Source of the DNA: Nitrospinota bacterium
Lineage (GTDB): Bacteria > Tectomicrobia > Entotheonellia > J063
Direction of reading: 5' to 3'
Assembly (NCBI GenBank): GCA_003696125.1
Contig: RFHZ01000731.1
Span: 1-5,285, forward strand
Length of the DNA: 5,285 nucleotides
Below, in pieces: positions 1 to 5,285 of the stretch (its first letter is position 1; the number at the start of each line of letters is the position of its first letter). The notes below the pieces were generated by a model that did not search any database, was not told where the DNA came from, and was given only the letters and a program-made list of their open reading frames with translations. The position numbers were made by a program, and so were the translations under genes.

Positions 1-854
1 ATGATGTTGAGGCTCACCGTCGGGTAATGGTAGAGTCGCCGCACCGCATCTCGCTGCTCCGGGGTCAGGGAGGGGTCTTCCAGCAGGAAATCGATGCTGG
101 TCTGGATAACCGGCTCCAGCTCTGCCGGGATATCCAGCGGAAAATCGGCGATCCGTTTGACATGAGGGATGACGGCGAGCAGCTTCTCGATGGCGTTCTC
201 CCCCAGATAGGGTTGGGAGCCGTGCGCAGTAACCCCTTGCGCCTGCAAGACCGTGGCCATTCCCCCTTTGCAGCCGAGCTCGATGGTTGGTCGTTCTCGT
301 GTCCCCCCGCTGGCATCACCGATGACACAGACATCCCCCTGCAGTTTTCCTGCCTCTGCCAGCCACTTGGCCCCATCCTCTCCTCCGATCTCCTCATCTG
401 CGGTGAGCCAGACTTCCAGGGTCGGATGCGCTCCCTGAGCCACGGCATGGAGTACCGTTGCCGCCACCATGGCGGCGGCACAGCTCCCCTTCATATCTGT
501 CGCTCCCCGACCATAGACCCGATCCCCTTCAATGGCTCCGCTGAACGGGGGATGCTTCCAGGCCGCATGATCCCCTTCTGGTACCACATCGAGGTGACCG
601 AGCCAGAGGATCTTGCCCGGCTGCTTTCCCGGGATGGTGGCACAGAGGTTCGGTTTGCGCTCCACATGCTGATGGAGGCTTGTCTCGATCCCGCGCTCCT
701 GGAAATAGGATTGGGCAAAAGCGATACACTCATCGATGTAGCCAGGGGGGACCACGGTGGGGAACTGGACCAGCCGGGAGGTGAGTTCCATCAGCTCTTT
801 CCCGCAGTCTGCAATGCGATCCTTCACCCTTTGCACCAGCGTACTCTCTGCCAT
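1..854 (-). CDS. M20-family zinc metallohydrolase (ArgE/DapE/ACY1-like deacylase or peptidase), 3' end outside window
   Basis: Cytoplasmic metal-dependent amidohydrolase that would remove an acyl or aminoacyl group from an N-acyl amino acid or small peptide; the substrate cannot be read from sequence. Translating the minus strand from 854 gives 284 uninterrupted codons running off the left edge. The M20 two-zinc site is complete: His87 and Asp89 in LGHLDVVP, bridging Asp120 in GRGATDMKG, the Glu154-Glu155 pair in TADEEIGG, and Asp180 in VIGDAS. The inserted dimerisation domain starts near residue 190, with His211 in VTAHGSQP, the histidine that reaches the partner's active site in this family. 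Family members are usually about 380-430 residues, so roughly the last quarter, including the final metal-ligand histidine, is missing. The ATG at 854 has AAAGGAG upstream and a good promoter further up. It diverges from the ThDP-enzyme gene. ArgE, DapE, carboxypeptidase G2-like and aminoacylase roles all remain possible. No signal peptide is seen. Confidence 0.93.
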   Translation of the reverse strand, partial: MAESTLVQRVKDRIADCGKELMELTSRLVQFPTVVPPGYIDECIAFAQSYFQERGIETSLHQHVERKPNLCATIPGKQPGKILWLGHLDVVPEGDHAAWKHPPFSGAIEGDRVYGRGATDMKGSCAAAMVAATVLHAVAQGAHPTLEVWLTADEEIGGEDGAKWLAEAGKLQGDVCVIGDASGGTRERPTIELGCKGGMATVLQAQGVTAHGSQPYLGENAIEKLLAVIPHVKRIADFPLDIPAELEPVIQTSIDFLLEDPSLTPEQRDAVRRLYHYPTVSLNI

Positions 855-865
855 ACGACCAATCG

Positions 866-872
866 CTCCTTT
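866..872 (-). promoter_or_regulatory. Ribosome binding site of the M20 hydrolase
   Basis: On the minus strand this reads AAAGGAG, 11 nt before the ATG at 854. The spacing is slightly long but the match to the anti-Shine-Dalgarno sequence is good and supports this start. Confidence 0.6.
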
Positions 873-929
873 CTGTTCAAGATCATCCCTTTCACGTCTG
901 GTTATTTCTGCCGTAAGACCGTTTTTCCT

Positions 930-958
930 GGTATAGAGGATGGAGTGGAGAATGTCAA
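930..958 (-). promoter_or_regulatory. Sigma70-like promoter for the M20 hydrolase
   Basis: On the minus strand there is a perfect -35 hexamer TTGACA (plus-strand 953-958), a 17-bp spacer and a -10 hexamer TATACC (plus-strand 930-935, 4 of 6 matches). The predicted transcript starts near 923 and has a leader of about 70 nt. This is inferred from consensus only. Confidence 0.6.
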
Positions 959-994
959 GCGCAGATTCCCTTGCGGGACGCCTCACCTTTTTCG

Positions 995-1023: not shown

Positions 1024-1070
1024 GGGTGGGGGTTTTGTGGATTGGGAGACGAGACGATGAGCCATATGAC

Positions 1071-1076
1071 GAGGAG
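1071..1076 (+). promoter_or_regulatory. Ribosome binding site that fixes the ThDP-enzyme start
   Basis: GAGGAG lies 6 nt before the ATG at 1083. The next in-frame ATG at 1092 would be 15 nt away, and the GTG at 1026 has no Shine-Dalgarno and sits at the predicted -10/+1 region. The site therefore selects 1083. Confidence 0.7.
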
Positions 1077-1082
1077 ATCGGT

Positions 1083-2762
1083 ATGGGAAAGATGACGGGG
1101 AATCTTGCACTGCTCGAACTACTCCGGCAGGAAGGGGTCAGGTATATCTTTGGCAATCCAGGTACCACGGAACTTCCGCTCATGGATGCCCTGGCCCAGA
1201 GCGAGGATTTCACCTATATCCTGGGACTCCAGGAGGGGGTGGTAATGGCCCTGGCCGGAGGGTATGCCCAGGCCTCTGGCCGGCTCGGCTTTGTCAACGT
1301 CCATGTCGCTCCTGGCCTGGGAAACACGCTCGGGCTGATGTATACCGCTTACATGACCCGTGTTCCCCTGCTGGTCACGGCCGGCCAGCAGGATCGCTCC
1401 CTCCAGTTGCAAGAGCCGCTACTCTGGGGCAACCTGGTGAAGATGGCGGAACCGTACACCAAGTGGGCCTACGAGGTACAGCGGGTGGATGATCTCCCCC
1501 AGGCCGTGCGGCGTGCGATCAAGGTGGCCCAGACCCCACCGGCCGGTCCGGTCTTCCTCTCCCTGCCCATGGATGTCCTCTATGAGGCCACCGATCTCGA
1601 TCTCTCCGCCCCTCCTCGTCCCTCGCTCCGTACCCAGGGGAATGCCGAAGATCTGCAGCAGGCTGCCACCCTCCTGGCCGCAGCGCAATCCCCGGTCATC
1701 CTGGTCGGCGATCGGGTGGCGTACAGTGAAGCCCTGGCAGAGGTGGTAGAGTTGGCCGAACTCCTGGGGGCACGGGTCTTTGCCGAGCCGATCGCTAACA
1801 CCACCAGCTTCCCGACCGATCATCCCCTGTTTGCCGGCTTTCTTCCTGTCTTTGGACACCAGATTCGGCAGGCCCTGGACCCGGCCGACCTGATCCTGGT
1901 CATCGGCATGAACCTCTTCAAACCTTTTCTCCCCTCCTCCACCCCTTCCCTTCCACCCGGGGTCCCGCTCATCCAGCTCGACACCGATCCCTGGGAGATC
2001 GGGAAGAATCATCCGGTAACGGTAGGGATTCTGGCCGATCCCAAAGCCGGGGTCGCGGCCCTGACCTCCCTGCTGGCTTCCCGGCTCTCGGCCACCGCCA
2101 GGCAGAAGGCCCAGGAACGAAGGCAGCAGTATGGGGCGACCAGGCAGGCGGAACGAGAGAGCCTGGAGGCACATGCTGCCGCGGAAGAGGACAGGGTCCC
2201 CATGGCGCCCATCGTCCTGATGCGGGAACTGGCCCGGCATCTTCCCCCTGATGTGGTCATCATGAACGAATCGGTCACCTCGGGAAGGACCCTGCGGGAA
2301 TTCCTCACCTGCCGGGACAGCAAGAGCTATTTCGGTCCCAAGGGAGGAGGGTTAGGCTGGGGATTGCCGGCAACGATCGGGGTGAAGCTGGCCCTGCCGG
2401 AGAGGCCGGTGGTGGGGCTCTTAGGCGAGGGGAGCGCCATGTATGCCATTCAGGGACTCTGGACCGCTGCCCACTACCAGGTTCCGGTTCTGTTTGTCAT
2501 CTGTAATAACGCTCAATACCGGATATTGAAAGGAGGTCTGCTCGCCTTCAAGAGTGAAGCAGCCAAACAGGGGAAGTTCATCGGGATGGATCTGACCGAG
2601 CCGGAGATCGATTTTGTGTCTCTGGCCGAATCGATGGGGGTAACGGCAGAGCGCGTTACGCACTTTCAAGAGGTGGGACCGGCTCTGCAGCGCGCCCTTG
2701 CCCGGCCGGGCCCGTCTCTCATTGATGTCCCGCTTGACCGCTCCGTGAAGGCGCTCTTCTGA
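1083..2762 (+). CDS. Thiamine-diphosphate-dependent enzyme, benzoylformate decarboxylase/acetolactate synthase-like
   Basis: Cytoplasmic ThDP enzyme of the 2-oxo-acid decarboxylase/carboligase superfamily, 559 residues, a normal family length. The order is: N-terminal Pyr domain (about 1-170) with FGNPGTTELP at 23-32, cofactor-activating Glu51 in LGLQEG and His74 in NVHVAPG; central domain (about 190-330); C-terminal PP domain (about 370-545) with NES at 395-397 and the cofactor-binding motif at 448-476. That motif reads GEGSAMY...CNN rather than GDG...NN, so the usual Mg ligand Asp is Glu449. From a remembered alignment, the framework resembles Pseudomonas benzoylformate decarboxylase (Glu47, His70 equivalents), but its second catalytic histidine (His281) corresponds to Phe282 here and the substrate-side helix after CNN is about seven residues longer, so the benzoylformate substrate is doubtful. 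Acetolactate synthase, oxalyl-CoA decarboxylase-like or sulfopyruvate decarboxylase-like activity cannot be excluded. It has its own promoter, diverges from the M20 gene, and is followed by a probable terminator. Confidence 0.92.
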   Translation: MGKMTGNLALLELLRQEGVRYIFGNPGTTELPLMDALAQSEDFTYILGLQEGVVMALAGGYAQASGRLGFVNVHVAPGLGNTLGLMYTAYMTRVPLLVTAGQQDRSLQLQEPLLWGNLVKMAEPYTKWAYEVQRVDDLPQAVRRAIKVAQTPPAGPVFLSLPMDVLYEATDLDLSAPPRPSLRTQGNAEDLQQAATLLAAAQSPVILVGDRVAYSEALAEVVELAELLGARVFAEPIANTTSFPTDHPLFAGFLPVFGHQIRQALDPADLILVIGMNLFKPFLPSSTPSLPPGVPLIQLDTDPWEIGKNHPVTVGILADPKAGVAALTSLLASRLSATARQKAQERRQQYGATRQAERESLEAHAAAEEDRVPMAPIVLMRELARHLPPDVVIMNESVTSGRTLREFLTCRDSKSYFGPKGGGLGWGLPATIGVKLALPERPVVGLLGEGSAMYAIQGLWTAAHYQVPVLFVICNNAQYRILKGGLLAFKSEAAKQGKFIGMDLTEPEIDFVSLAESMGVTAERVTHFQEVGPALQRALARPGPSLIDVPLDRSVKALF

Positions 2763-2902: not shown

Positions 2903-3144
2903 AATTTCAACCCTTGCAAATGCTTCCACCCTCGCCGATAACCGTGCAGAACTCTACGGAATTAAGGGTTACCCGAAAAGAAGAGCATGGCCCGAACACT
3001 CATGGAGTGACCAGAGCAAAAGAACGTACCGGGGCAGCGAGCATTAAGAGACTAGAAGGAGGAGCGAGGGGGCAGAGGGTCTTATAGCTATAGAGTGGAG
3101 ATATGGGGAAAGGTCTGATCGACGAAACGTAATGGAGGTAGACT
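2903..3144 (+). other. Long non-coding leader upstream of the tandem FBPA/P gene
   Basis: No recognisable protein gene or known riboswitch consensus is seen here. The contents are: a GGGTTACCC inverted repeat (2966-2974); a strongly purine-rich stretch (about 3044-3080) containing AAGGAGG at 3056-3062, a perfect Shine-Dalgarno with no start codon at usable distance; a 10-bp palindrome TATAGCTATA (3083-3092); and a nine-codon reading frame (3103-3132, MGKGLIDET) ending just before the real ribosome binding site. The base composition is less GC-rich and less codon-like than the flanking genes. It could be a regulatory leader, a decayed gene or mobile-element remnant; nothing here decides it. 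Confidence 0.35.
3134..3139 (+). promoter_or_regulatory. Ribosome binding site of the tandem FBPA/P gene
   Basis: GGAGGT lies 5 nt before the ATG at 3145. An in-frame TAG at 3139-3141 immediately upstream means that the reading frame cannot begin any earlier, so this site and the ATG at 3145 define the start. Confidence 0.8.
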
Positions 3145-5285
3145 ATGGGAAAATTTCGCGGAACAGAGCAGCGTCCGATAACGCAGTCGAACGTTATGAT
3201 TGTCAGTGCCGATCTGGGAAGCTGTTTTGGTCATGAACTCCTGCCTGACGTGCTGGAACCTCCTCGAGAGTTTTTGCAAGGGAAAGTCGCCGCAGGGGTG
3301 TTGAGAGGCGCCTGGGTCAACGTCTTTGGAGGTGATCTGCACCTGCATCTTACCACCTATAACGGCGACTTTGTGGAGGGGGAAACCTACCGCGAGAATC
3401 CCTCTGAGGTGGCGGCCCGCCTGGCCCTGGAAGCCGTCCTGCTGGCGGTAAAGAAGGGGATGGAGATCGGGTTGTACCAGCCGGCAGAGGGAGCCAATGT
3501 TCTCGATATGGCTCCGGAAGAGCAGGTACAGGTCCTGAAGCTCCGCTATCTCGACTTTCCCTTCACCGAACGGGGAGCAGAACCGATCTATGTGGCCAAG
3601 GCGTTAAACGCGAGTTGGGGATTCTTCAATCGTGCCCTCTTCAACCTCTTCTTCAATCCGGATAAGGGGTCTGGACGCCGTATTGAAGGAAACGATTTTC
3701 TGGCCGTTGTCGAGAGCATCGAAGACCTGAAGGCGGGGAAGTCGGAAGTGCGCACCTATGAGTTCGGTTCAGGACACATCAACGAACTGCAGGCGCTCAT
3801 CGCCGATGCCGATGAGTGGCGTCTGAGCGAGGTGTATGCGACCCGGGGACGCTTCGGGGAAGGGTCCTTGAGAGAGGAACCGGCGGCCATGGTGGCCGGG
3901 AGTTTCAACCCGGTTCTGATCGGCCGCTCCCAATCAGGTCTTCCAGCCATCGGCGAGTTCACGCAGGCGACAGGCGAGTTCTACTTTGGCCCTGGTGGCG
4001 AAGGGGGCGGATACCGGGTCGGGCTCATGCCGGTCACCTTTGCCGAGGCCCAGAGCATGGTGGTCTCAGAAGGGACGGCCAAGGTGGTGGCCTATGCCTA
4101 CCAGTCCTATGACAAAGGCCGGATCCCGGAAGGACCTGATGTACAGGACATCTTTGCCCAAAATCGTCCGGAAACCCGGCAGTTGCAACGCGAGGCCGCC
4201 TACCTGATCCAGCACATGGTCATGCATGGGGAGTTTGAGCCTTACCTGAATGCCCAGACGGCCGAGAGCCGGGCCCTGGAAGAGGCCAAGCGGCTGGGGA
4301 GTCGTCTGCAGGAGATCCCGGATGGCGAAGATCCGGTGGTCACGGCGGCCAACCAGCGGGCGATCTTCACCATCTCTGACATCAAAGCAGATGCTGGCGG
4401 CAAAATCGGGCATACCACTCCGCCTAATCATTTCCGTTATGTGGCCGATGCCAGCCTGGAAGAAGCGAAAAGAGCAGGACTGATCTTTGGCACCTCGGAG
4501 ATCATCGAGGTGGGGGATGATGGACACCTGCTGATGACGCACAACAAAGGGGCGGATAACAATGCCATCCACTTCTTTGCCTACAAGACTTTCTTCCGCC
4601 AGGTCTGGGTGGCCGAGGTTTTGGGCTACAAGTGGTACGGGCTGGGACAGGACCTGGTCGGTGATGCCTCGGCCGGGAAGACCACAGAAGAGCTCGCCGA
4701 TCTGACCGATACCTTTATCTCGCTCTTGCCCCAATTCCTGCCGGAAGCGGAAAAGCGGCAGTATGACAAGCTGAAAGCCTCCTATGAACGCTGGAAGAGT
4801 GGGGCCGGGAAAGGCCATACCCCCCAGGCTCCTTTCTCCGGGAACGTCTCCGGTCAGGGACCCGGTTTTGCCGAACTGCCGATGCCGCGTTCCACCAATG
4901 TCGGGCTTCTGGCCATAGACAAGGCCGGTCCCTCCGCCTTTAACGTTCCGGTCTACTATTGCCTGCAAAAGGCGATGCGTGACGGGAGCCTGGCCCGCTA
5001 TCTGGCTGGAACCGATGCGCAGGGATTCGTCATAGAGATCTGGGAAGTAGAGGAGCATCGCCGCATTTTCCTTGATCTGGCCAGCGAATTGCCTTCGGTT
5101 GAGCGTCTGCTGGGGGCCACGGAGAAGTTCAATGTGAAACGGGTCTGGACCCGCACGACAGCGGAATGGGATCCGGCCCGGGCCGAAGAGAGCCTGGGCG
5201 ATATCCTGCTTTCCGCTTCCACAGAGAAGCTGGCCGTCATCACCGGGGGTGAGTATCGGGGCAAGGACGATCCGGTACTGCTGGC
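3145..5285 (+). CDS. fbp: Tandem type V fructose-1,6-bisphosphate aldolase/phosphatase with degenerate N-terminal copy, 3' end outside window
   Basis: The family is bifunctional: it condenses dihydroxyacetone phosphate with glyceraldehyde 3-phosphate and dephosphorylates the product to fructose 6-phosphate, driving gluconeogenesis in the cytoplasm. 713 codons are visible with no stop. Two FBPA/P domains follow each other. Copy 1 (about 16-368) has ADLGSCFGH, GGDLHLHL, AEPIYVAKALN, GLPAIGEF, GLMPV and HGEFEPY in family order, but the catalytic K-D-D of GKDDP is Ser253-Phe254-Asn255 and the Asp-Lys of the ADK motif is Leu154-Asn155. A linker (about 369-404) follows. Copy 2 (from about 405) retains Asp416, His423, Asp458-Asp459, Gln502, Asp592-Lys593, SGNVSGQGPG (565-574), Tyr704 and Lys707-Asp708-Asp709 of YRGKDDP. 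An insertion of about 55 residues (509-563) splits its lid loop. Usual members are single-domain, roughly 370-400 residues; about 150 residues of copy 2 are presumably beyond the edge. Copy 2 is probably the active enzyme and copy 1 structural or regulatory; that split is inferred. No signal peptide or membrane segment is seen. Confidence 0.9.
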   Translation, partial: MGKFRGTEQRPITQSNVMIVSADLGSCFGHELLPDVLEPPREFLQGKVAAGVLRGAWVNVFGGDLHLHLTTYNGDFVEGETYRENPSEVAARLALEAVLLAVKKGMEIGLYQPAEGANVLDMAPEEQVQVLKLRYLDFPFTERGAEPIYVAKALNASWGFFNRALFNLFFNPDKGSGRRIEGNDFLAVVESIEDLKAGKSEVRTYEFGSGHINELQALIADADEWRLSEVYATRGRFGEGSLREEPAAMVAGSFNPVLIGRSQSGLPAIGEFTQATGEFYFGPGGEGGGYRVGLMPVTFAEAQSMVVSEGTAKVVAYAYQSYDKGRIPEGPDVQDIFAQNRPETRQLQREAAYLIQHMVMHGEFEPYLNAQTAESRALEEAKRLGSRLQEIPDGEDPVVTAANQRAIFTISDIKADAGGKIGHTTPPNHFRYVADASLEEAKRAGLIFGTSEIIEVGDDGHLLMTHNKGADNNAIHFFAYKTFFRQVWVAEVLGYKWYGLGQDLVGDASAGKTTEELADLTDTFISLLPQFLPEAEKRQYDKLKASYERWKSGAGKGHTPQAPFSGNVSGQGPGFAELPMPRSTNVGLLAIDKAGPSAFNVPVYYCLQKAMRDGSLARYLAGTDAQGFVIEIWEVEEHRRIFLDLASELPSVERLLGATEKFNVKRVWTRTTAEWDPARAEESLGDILLSASTEKLAVITGGEYRGKDDPVLL
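3190..4248 (+). other. Copy 1: degenerate FBPA/P domain (residues about 16-368)
   Basis: Compared from memory with the Thermoproteus/Sulfolobus enzyme, ligand positions read: Asp11 kept (Asp23), His18 kept (His30), Asp52 to Gly63, Asp53 kept (Asp64), Gln95 to Glu115, Asp132 to Leu154, Lys133 to Asn155, Tyr229 to Val250, Schiff-base Lys232 to Ser253, Asp233 to Phe254 and Asp234 to Asn255. The glycine-rich SGNVRG-type lid motif is also absent. Fold-defining segments are retained through to the C-terminal HG.F.P motif, so the copy is full-length but probably without aldolase or phosphatase activity. Confidence 0.8.
4357..5285 (+). other. Copy 2: catalytically intact FBPA/P domain with lid-loop insertion (residues 405 onward, truncated)
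   Basis: The segments ISDIKADAGGKIGH, VGDDGHLLMTHNKG, YGLGQDLVGDA, PFSGNVSGQGPGFAEL, LLAIDKAGP and YRGKDDPVLL follow canonical FBPA/P order with all metal ligands and the Schiff-base lysine (Lys707). The C-terminal loop that carries the last catalytic tyrosine of the family lies outside the window and cannot be checked. Confidence 0.88.

Follow-up and report, generated by a model that had tools for sequence, protein, structure and literature searches.

Does a gene that fuses two copies of a bifunctional enzyme encode two active sites, or one that is shared between the copies? The locus analysed here raises this question for FBP aldolase/phosphatase (FBPA/P). The window, meaning the whole stretch of 5,285 nucleotides that was analysed (G000:C113:1-5285), came from an assembly of 990 contigs and ends within a gene for two successive FBPA/P copies. 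FBPA/P has been argued to be an ancestral gluconeogenic enzyme, and both of its reactions use a single, remodelling active site. The explanation favoured here, with moderate confidence, is that duplication and fusion divided the homodimeric composite active site of this bifunctional gluconeogenic enzyme between a catalytic half and a dead half, the latter completing it in trans, with one obligate asymmetric site left per chain. The split enzyme would occur in three or more unrelated lineages of bacteria and would usually be their only detectable FBPase.

A tandem FBPA/P gene at the contig end

The tandem gene lies on the forward strand at positions 3145..5283 and runs as one open frame of 713 codons from an ATG start. 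A ribosome-binding-site-like GGAGG was recognised in the sequence at 3134..3138 (+), 6 bases 5' of the start codon. The 3' end of the gene is missing: the frame exits the contig end without a stop codon and copy 2 is thereby incomplete. Judged against homologues of 845 residues, ~130 residues are missing, and the last third of copy 2 is absent. A linker joining the two copies occupies 4249..4365 (+; residues 369-407).

A sequence-only reading of the window had described one frame encoding two successive FBPA/P folds, and the uninterrupted 713 codons and the Pfam matches agree with it. FBPase_3 (PF01950) was the sole family matched on the window protein, in three stretches with 245 bits in all: residues ~17-368 (copy 1), and residues 409-508 and 563-712 (copy 2). 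The curated cut-off of 25 bits was passed by copy 1 alone (84) and by both copy 2 pieces (75.8 and 88.6), so that two copies were matched, not one. The cut-off of the NCBIfam equivalog model for FBP aldolase/phosphatase (NF041126, 520 bits) was missed by the window protein (235 bits) and by the full-length homologues (231 bits). A single-domain subunit of ~360-400 residues is one mark of FBPA/P; the tandem frames instead have 845-869 residues. The tandem protein is a true member of the FBPA/P superfamily (PF01950) with a new architecture, outside the NCBIfam equivalog as defined. The earlier reading had known of no description of this architecture, and in the open-access literature, for which coverage was incomplete, no account of it was found; the mentions found concerned the single-domain enzyme only.

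Two further genes were seen in the window. Upstream of the tandem gene, 1026-2762 (+) encodes a thiamine-diphosphate enzyme whose closest match is benzoylformate decarboxylase (465 bits, missing the cut-off of 493), and the divergent gene at 3-986 (-) encodes an M20-family deacylase/peptidase. Neither has an evident tie to gluconeogenesis.

Distribution and selection

Full-length tandem proteins were found in eight further genomes (845-869 residues, 62-66% identity), in the size range of 800-900 residues at which homologues had been expected. A search of 386 diverse genomes gave one more complete tandem, in a Poribacteria MAG (G320; 845 residues, 63% identity; L031 is the same gene as L052). 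Among 396 genomes from the phylum of an Acidobacteria MAG (L053, JAJDTT010000299) there were seven complete tandems and one C-terminal fragment. G320 alone carried the tandem among the 84 genomes of its phylum. No complete tandem was found among 377 genomes of a Deltaproteobacteria MAG's phylum, and none was found in the viral contigs searched. Single-domain FBPA/Ps, mostly of 370-400 residues, were present in 36 of the 386 and 39 of the 396 genomes in the same searches. From these searches, with few complete tandems spread over several genomes, the tandem is judged to be rare yet real and old. An assembly or frameshift artefact was ruled out by the occurrence of the fused frame in nine genomes from different assemblies.

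Two partial copies were also recorded. The Deltaproteobacteria MAG G468 contains a remnant in which residues 8-98 are joined to residues 744-838 (L054 1452-1712; G468:C157:41586-42108) without the middle ~645 residues, through either an internal deletion or an assembly join. G679, which already has a complete tandem, has a second N-terminal tandem fragment at a contig edge (L113 2-550, G679:C187), either a paralogue or a strain variant.

In a tree each copy formed a single clade with full support and a very long stem. One ancient fusion is therefore enough, and because the stems are very long it is uncertain where the two copies belong among single-domain proteins. Mean identity to single-domain members was ~21% for copy 1 and ~32% for copy 2. 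Purifying selection acts on both copies, with dN/dS values of 0.09-0.20 for copy 1 and 0.05-0.12 for copy 2. Copy 1 is therefore under selection, and a decaying pseudogene half was ruled out.

Fold and active-site residues of copy 1

Copy 1 (3184..4248, +; residues 14-368) has an FBPA/P fold, supported by PF01950, hhalign, a structural model and a fold search, and is predicted to be catalytically dead. Residues were compared in an alignment of 53 single-domain proteins (ST0318 included), nine first copies and nine second copies, with family residue numbers taken from the 3r1m chain. By this alignment, G63-D64 replaces Asp53-Asp54 (3331..3336, +), L154-N155 replaces Asp132-Lys133 (3604..3609, +) and S253-F254-N255 replaces the catalytic Lys232-Asp233-Asp234 (3901..3909, +). 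The Ser-Phe-Asn, Leu-Asn and Gly substitutions had been named in the sequence-only reading, in each case correctly. In all nine tandem proteins copy 1 lacks the Schiff-base lysine and most of the metal ligands, and of the catalytic, metal and substrate set only Asp12 and Asp54 are kept throughout. At the positions of His19, Tyr91, Gln95, Gly104, Asp233 and Ser268, copy 1 has unrelated residues that differ by lineage. Duplication and fusion with loss of catalysis in copy 1, as proposed from the window, is supported as a prediction by the alignment of nine proteins.

A profile of the nine first copies was matched by hhalign to sixteen single-domain proteins with a probability of 99.1% and an E value of 8e-19 over 346 columns. 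An AlphaFold2 model of the window copy 1 alone (seven rows) had a mean pLDDT of 64 and a pTM of 0.71. In a fold search with this model the FBPA/P crystal structures all ranked first (Foldseek E 1e-18). Alignment with VIA-align to 1umg, 3r1m and 3t2x gave Z scores of 24-25 over 304-319 residues at 3.6-4.2 Å (for 1umg and 3r1m, ~25 over ~310 residues), and the best unrelated row scored Z 8.6. An unrelated fold for copy 1 was not borne out, and similarity by chance was ruled out by hhalign and the fold search. The fold match is support and not independent proof, because the alignment used for the model held FBPA/P relatives.

Copy 2 and the complementary losses

Copy 2 (4369..5283, +; residues 409-713, incomplete) keeps each catalytic and metal residue that falls in the window. 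D592-K593 corresponds to Asp132-Lys133 (4918..4923, +), and Y704-R-G-K707-D708-D709 corresponds to Tyr229, the Schiff-base Lys232 and the metal ligands Asp233-Asp234 (5254..5271, +). The paired metal aspartates Asp53-Asp54 are present as D458-D459, so the earlier statement that copy 2 retains all of the named residues held. Across the tandem proteins, copy 2 retains Asp12, His19, Asp53, Asp54, Tyr91, Gln95, Gly104-Asn105, Asp132, Lys133, Tyr229, Lys232, Asp233, Asp234, Arg266, Ser268 and His269 wherever the position is present, and 15/15 cis catalytic, metal and substrate positions are invariant. The Schiff-base Lys232, Tyr229 and the metal Asp/His/Gln residues, which mark an FBPA/P when they stand in one chain, were found together in copy 2 of 9/9 proteins and not in copy 1. 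Asp287, presumably a substrate contact of FBPA/P, is absent from copy 2 and is replaced by Ser or Asn. The FBPA/P fold of copy 2 is supported from sequence only.

An insertion of ~54 residues in copy 2 lies immediately 3' of the Gln95-Asp96 segment (4669..4830, +; placed by alignment). It is present in 9/9 tandem proteins and absent from every single-domain protein inspected, and it sits at what we take to be the position of a mobile lid loop. In single-domain FBPA/P the active-site loops move between the two reactions (PMC4473056).

The earlier reading had missed that the losses are complementary, with copy 2 also having lost family-invariant residues. Conserved columns were defined as those with at least 96% conservation in the 53 single-domain FBPA/Ps, which gave 76 columns. 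Copy 2 alone retained 37 of these and copy 1 alone 13; a further 16 were retained in both copies and 10 in neither (Fisher p 0.04 for exclusive retention, a modest value that ignores phylogeny). For polar columns the counts were 22, 5, 5 and 3 in the same order (Fisher p 0.03, phylogeny likewise ignored). Glu124, Phe147, Pro150, Gly155, Arg240, Gln242, Pro246 and Ala247 are invariant in 9/9 first copies and altered or deleted in second copies. Ala131, Pro184 and Glu250 follow the same pattern with exceptions, and Arg121, also in the set kept only by copy 1, may reflect an alignment shift.

In the window most of these residues fall in three copy 1 segments, placed by alignment. ERGAEPI (residues 142-148; 3568..3588, +) keeps the family Glu124, and FFNPDKGSG (residues 169-177; 3649..3675, +) keeps Phe147, Pro150 and Gly155, all of which copy 2 lacks. 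RSQSGLPAIGE (residues 261-271; 3925..3957, +) holds the invariant Arg240/Gln242/Pro246/Glu250 motif, the proposed trans donor. Gln242 is present in 53/53 single-domain proteins and 9/9 first copies and is deleted in 8/8 complete second copies. A Gln242 motif downstream of KDD within the same domain is a further mark of FBPA/P; the full-length homologues carry it in copy 1 only, having lost it by deletion downstream of the copy 2 KDD. Copy 2 has lost the Arg240-x-Gln242...Pro246 motif and parts of segments 124-155, and single-domain FBPA/Ps hold both this set and the catalytic one. Conservation of the trans set in copy 1 is partly circular as evidence, because the set beyond Gln242 was chosen after the pattern had been seen.

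Two very divergent single-domain proteins, from G003 and the viral contig L106, retain the catalytic set together with Gln242, Pro150, Gly155, Pro246, Ala247 and Glu250; the G003 protein is altered at Arg121, Glu124, Phe147 and Arg240. The G003 protein (L085; G003:C9:78563-79762) is FBPA/P-like, has ~465 residues with an N-terminal extension and comes from the window's own class. The L106 gene (2001-3104) lies on a 187 kb contig classed as viral (IMGVR_UViG_3300036766_002288). Its product has ~40% identity to cellular FBPA/Ps with all catalytic residues and Gln242 present, and it is possibly a phage metabolic gene or a binning error.

Proposed composite active site

The tandem is probably a pseudo-heterodimer made by fusion, with a single composite active site, in which copy 2 would supply the chemistry and copy 1 the trans face. 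Gln242 (residues 242-243) is taken here, following the UniProt/HAMAP annotation of FBPA/P, to be a substrate contact shared across dimer partners, with the remaining FBP contacts presumably in the opposite chain. In the single-domain homo-oligomer each subunit would give its own catalytic set and also a surface that completes the site of its neighbour. Duplication and fusion would have shared out these two roles between the copies. Copy 2 would hold the Schiff-base lysine and the catalytic tyrosine, along with the metal ligands and the sugar-phosphate residues that act in cis. Copy 1 would hold the trans surface, made up of Arg240-x-Gln242-x-x-x-Pro246, Glu124 and the Phe147-Pro150-Gly155 segments. 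If this role of Gln242 is right, the live site would combine the copy 2 catalytic set with Gln263 of copy 1. The mirror site, formed by the copy 1 catalytic set and the copy 2 Gln242, would have decayed on both sides, the expected outcome of relaxed selection on a redundant site, leaving one live site per polypeptide. We infer that the Arg240/Gln242 motif acts in trans, that both activities are kept and that the chains form an oligomer. The built-in asymmetric dimer of the earlier reading is supported as a prediction. An AlphaFold2 model of the whole tandem (three rows) had a pLDDT of 42 and was set aside.

The same reading had offered copy 1 as a possible scaffold. That copy 1 is structural only, with copy 2 making complete sites alone or with another copy 2, is considered unlikely. 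Copy 1 does retain the fold and evolves slightly faster than copy 2, and pseudo-subunits in scaffold roles are common. However, residues invariant in 53/53 single-domain enzymes have been lost from copy 2 and are held in copy 1; the Arg240-x-Gln242-x-x-x-Pro246 motif would be dispensable for a mere scaffold and would be expected to persist in a self-sufficient copy 2. Given that conserved residues missing from copy 2 are retained in copy 1, copy 1 looks like a trans donor and not a plain scaffold, and the earlier proposal was refined accordingly.

It is very unlikely that copy 1 is an allosteric sensor, binding a sugar phosphate or other effector in its former active site and controlling copy 2. 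The degenerate second site of a fused dimer does sometimes turn regulatory, and the invariant Asp12 and Asp54 would fit such a role. The former active-site positions are, however, among the less conserved of copy 1 (3/14 invariant, against 156/338 for the whole copy), and the six positions listed above vary among lineages with unrelated residues. A sugar-phosphate sensor in the former pocket, as the sequence-only reading had suggested, is disfavoured because the pocket positions are so poorly conserved. Copy 1 may bind some other ligand elsewhere than in this pocket.

Metabolic setting

The nine tandem-bearing genomes, all incomplete MAGs, were searched for three FBPase families (GlpX, class I and single-domain PF01950). 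No other FBPase of these three families was found in 8/9 of these incomplete genomes. GlpX (PF03320) was absent from 9/9 by profile search and no second, single-domain PF01950 gene was found in any of the nine. Class I FBPase (PF00316) was found in G679 only, plus a fragment in G599, and class II FBP aldolase (PF01116) in one of the nine, G694. In G694, G774, G679 and G599 (Acidobacteriota) the next gene, on the same strand and ~1-50 bases downstream, encodes pyruvate phosphate dikinase (PPDK); the PPDK genes beside the tandem are 79-83% identical to the G774 copy. The pairing fits gluconeogenesis, because PPDK can turn pyruvate into phosphoenolpyruvate. On these sequence data the tandem is the likely FBPase of several uncultured lineages that lack the other standard families searched, and a likely FBPase is thus pointed out where the NCBI equivalog model makes no call.

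We give little credence to the reading that the tandem acts on another phosphorylated substrate or retains just one of the two activities. It draws on the low identity of copy 2 to single-domain enzymes and its score below the equivalog cut-off, on the 54-residue insertion and missing Asp287, and on the presence in G000 of a distinct FbaB-type class I FBP aldolase (521 bits, cut-off 277). Against it, copy 2 keeps all catalytic, all metal and most substrate residues for both half-reactions, most carriers lack any other searched FBPase, and PPDK directly follows the tandem gene in four genomes. Two other PF01791 proteins were classed as LsrF-like. In G000:C920 (L097) a 346-residue frame resembling transaldolase or glucose-6-phosphate isomerase is found upstream of the FbaB-type aldolase.

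Other neighbours were also recorded. In Poribacteria (L052 252-7701) the tandem lies ~270 bases downstream of an apparent corrinoid methyltransferase cluster, judged from the sequences, with MtaA-like, B12-binding, reductive activator, pterin-binding and homocysteine S-methyltransferase-like genes. In three Acidobacteriota genomes (L107 2690-7462, also L108 and L109) a four-gene oleABCD-like cluster (KAS III-like, alpha/beta hydrolase, a third gene and 3beta-HSD-like) adjoins the tandem and is transcribed away from it. No clear functional link to the tandem was seen for the corrinoid methyltransferase-like genes of Poribacteria or for the radical SAM and aminotransferase neighbours in the L053 group.

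Comparison with known systems

The nearest known system is single-domain FBPA/P, or class V FBPase, of Sulfolobus tokodaii (ST0318, 1umg/3r1m) and Thermoproteus neutrophilus (3t2b-3t2g). The tandem is like it in the fold of both halves, in the catalytic and metal residues of copy 2 and in the Gln242 motif of copy 1. It is unlike it in having two fused copies (~845 residues), each without what the other keeps, and in the ~54-residue insertion of copy 2. If the composite site is real, this natural separation of subunit roles would distinguish cis-acting from trans-acting residues. Each side could be mutated alone with its symmetric partner untouched, which a homo-oligomer does not permit.

A pairing with pseudo-two-fold symmetry, in which one composite site is live and the other has decayed, is found in the C1/C2 domains of mammalian adenylyl cyclase and in the FGAM synthetase PurL. 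Their folds are unrelated to FBPA/P, and in them the decayed site is occupied by a regulator or structural nucleotide; the tandem gives no sign of such binding. Trypanosoma AdoMetDC and its prozyme pair an active enzyme with a catalytically dead paralogue; unlike the tandem, they are encoded by separate genes, and activation is by relief of autoinhibition, not by completion of the active site (PMC5201418). The fused alpha-prime and epsilon types of archaeal tRNA-splicing endonuclease are unrelated to the tandem in protein and in reaction and are an analogy of mechanism only: there a homo-oligomer gave rise to fused copies, with subfunctionalisation after duplication and fusion (PMC6379350).
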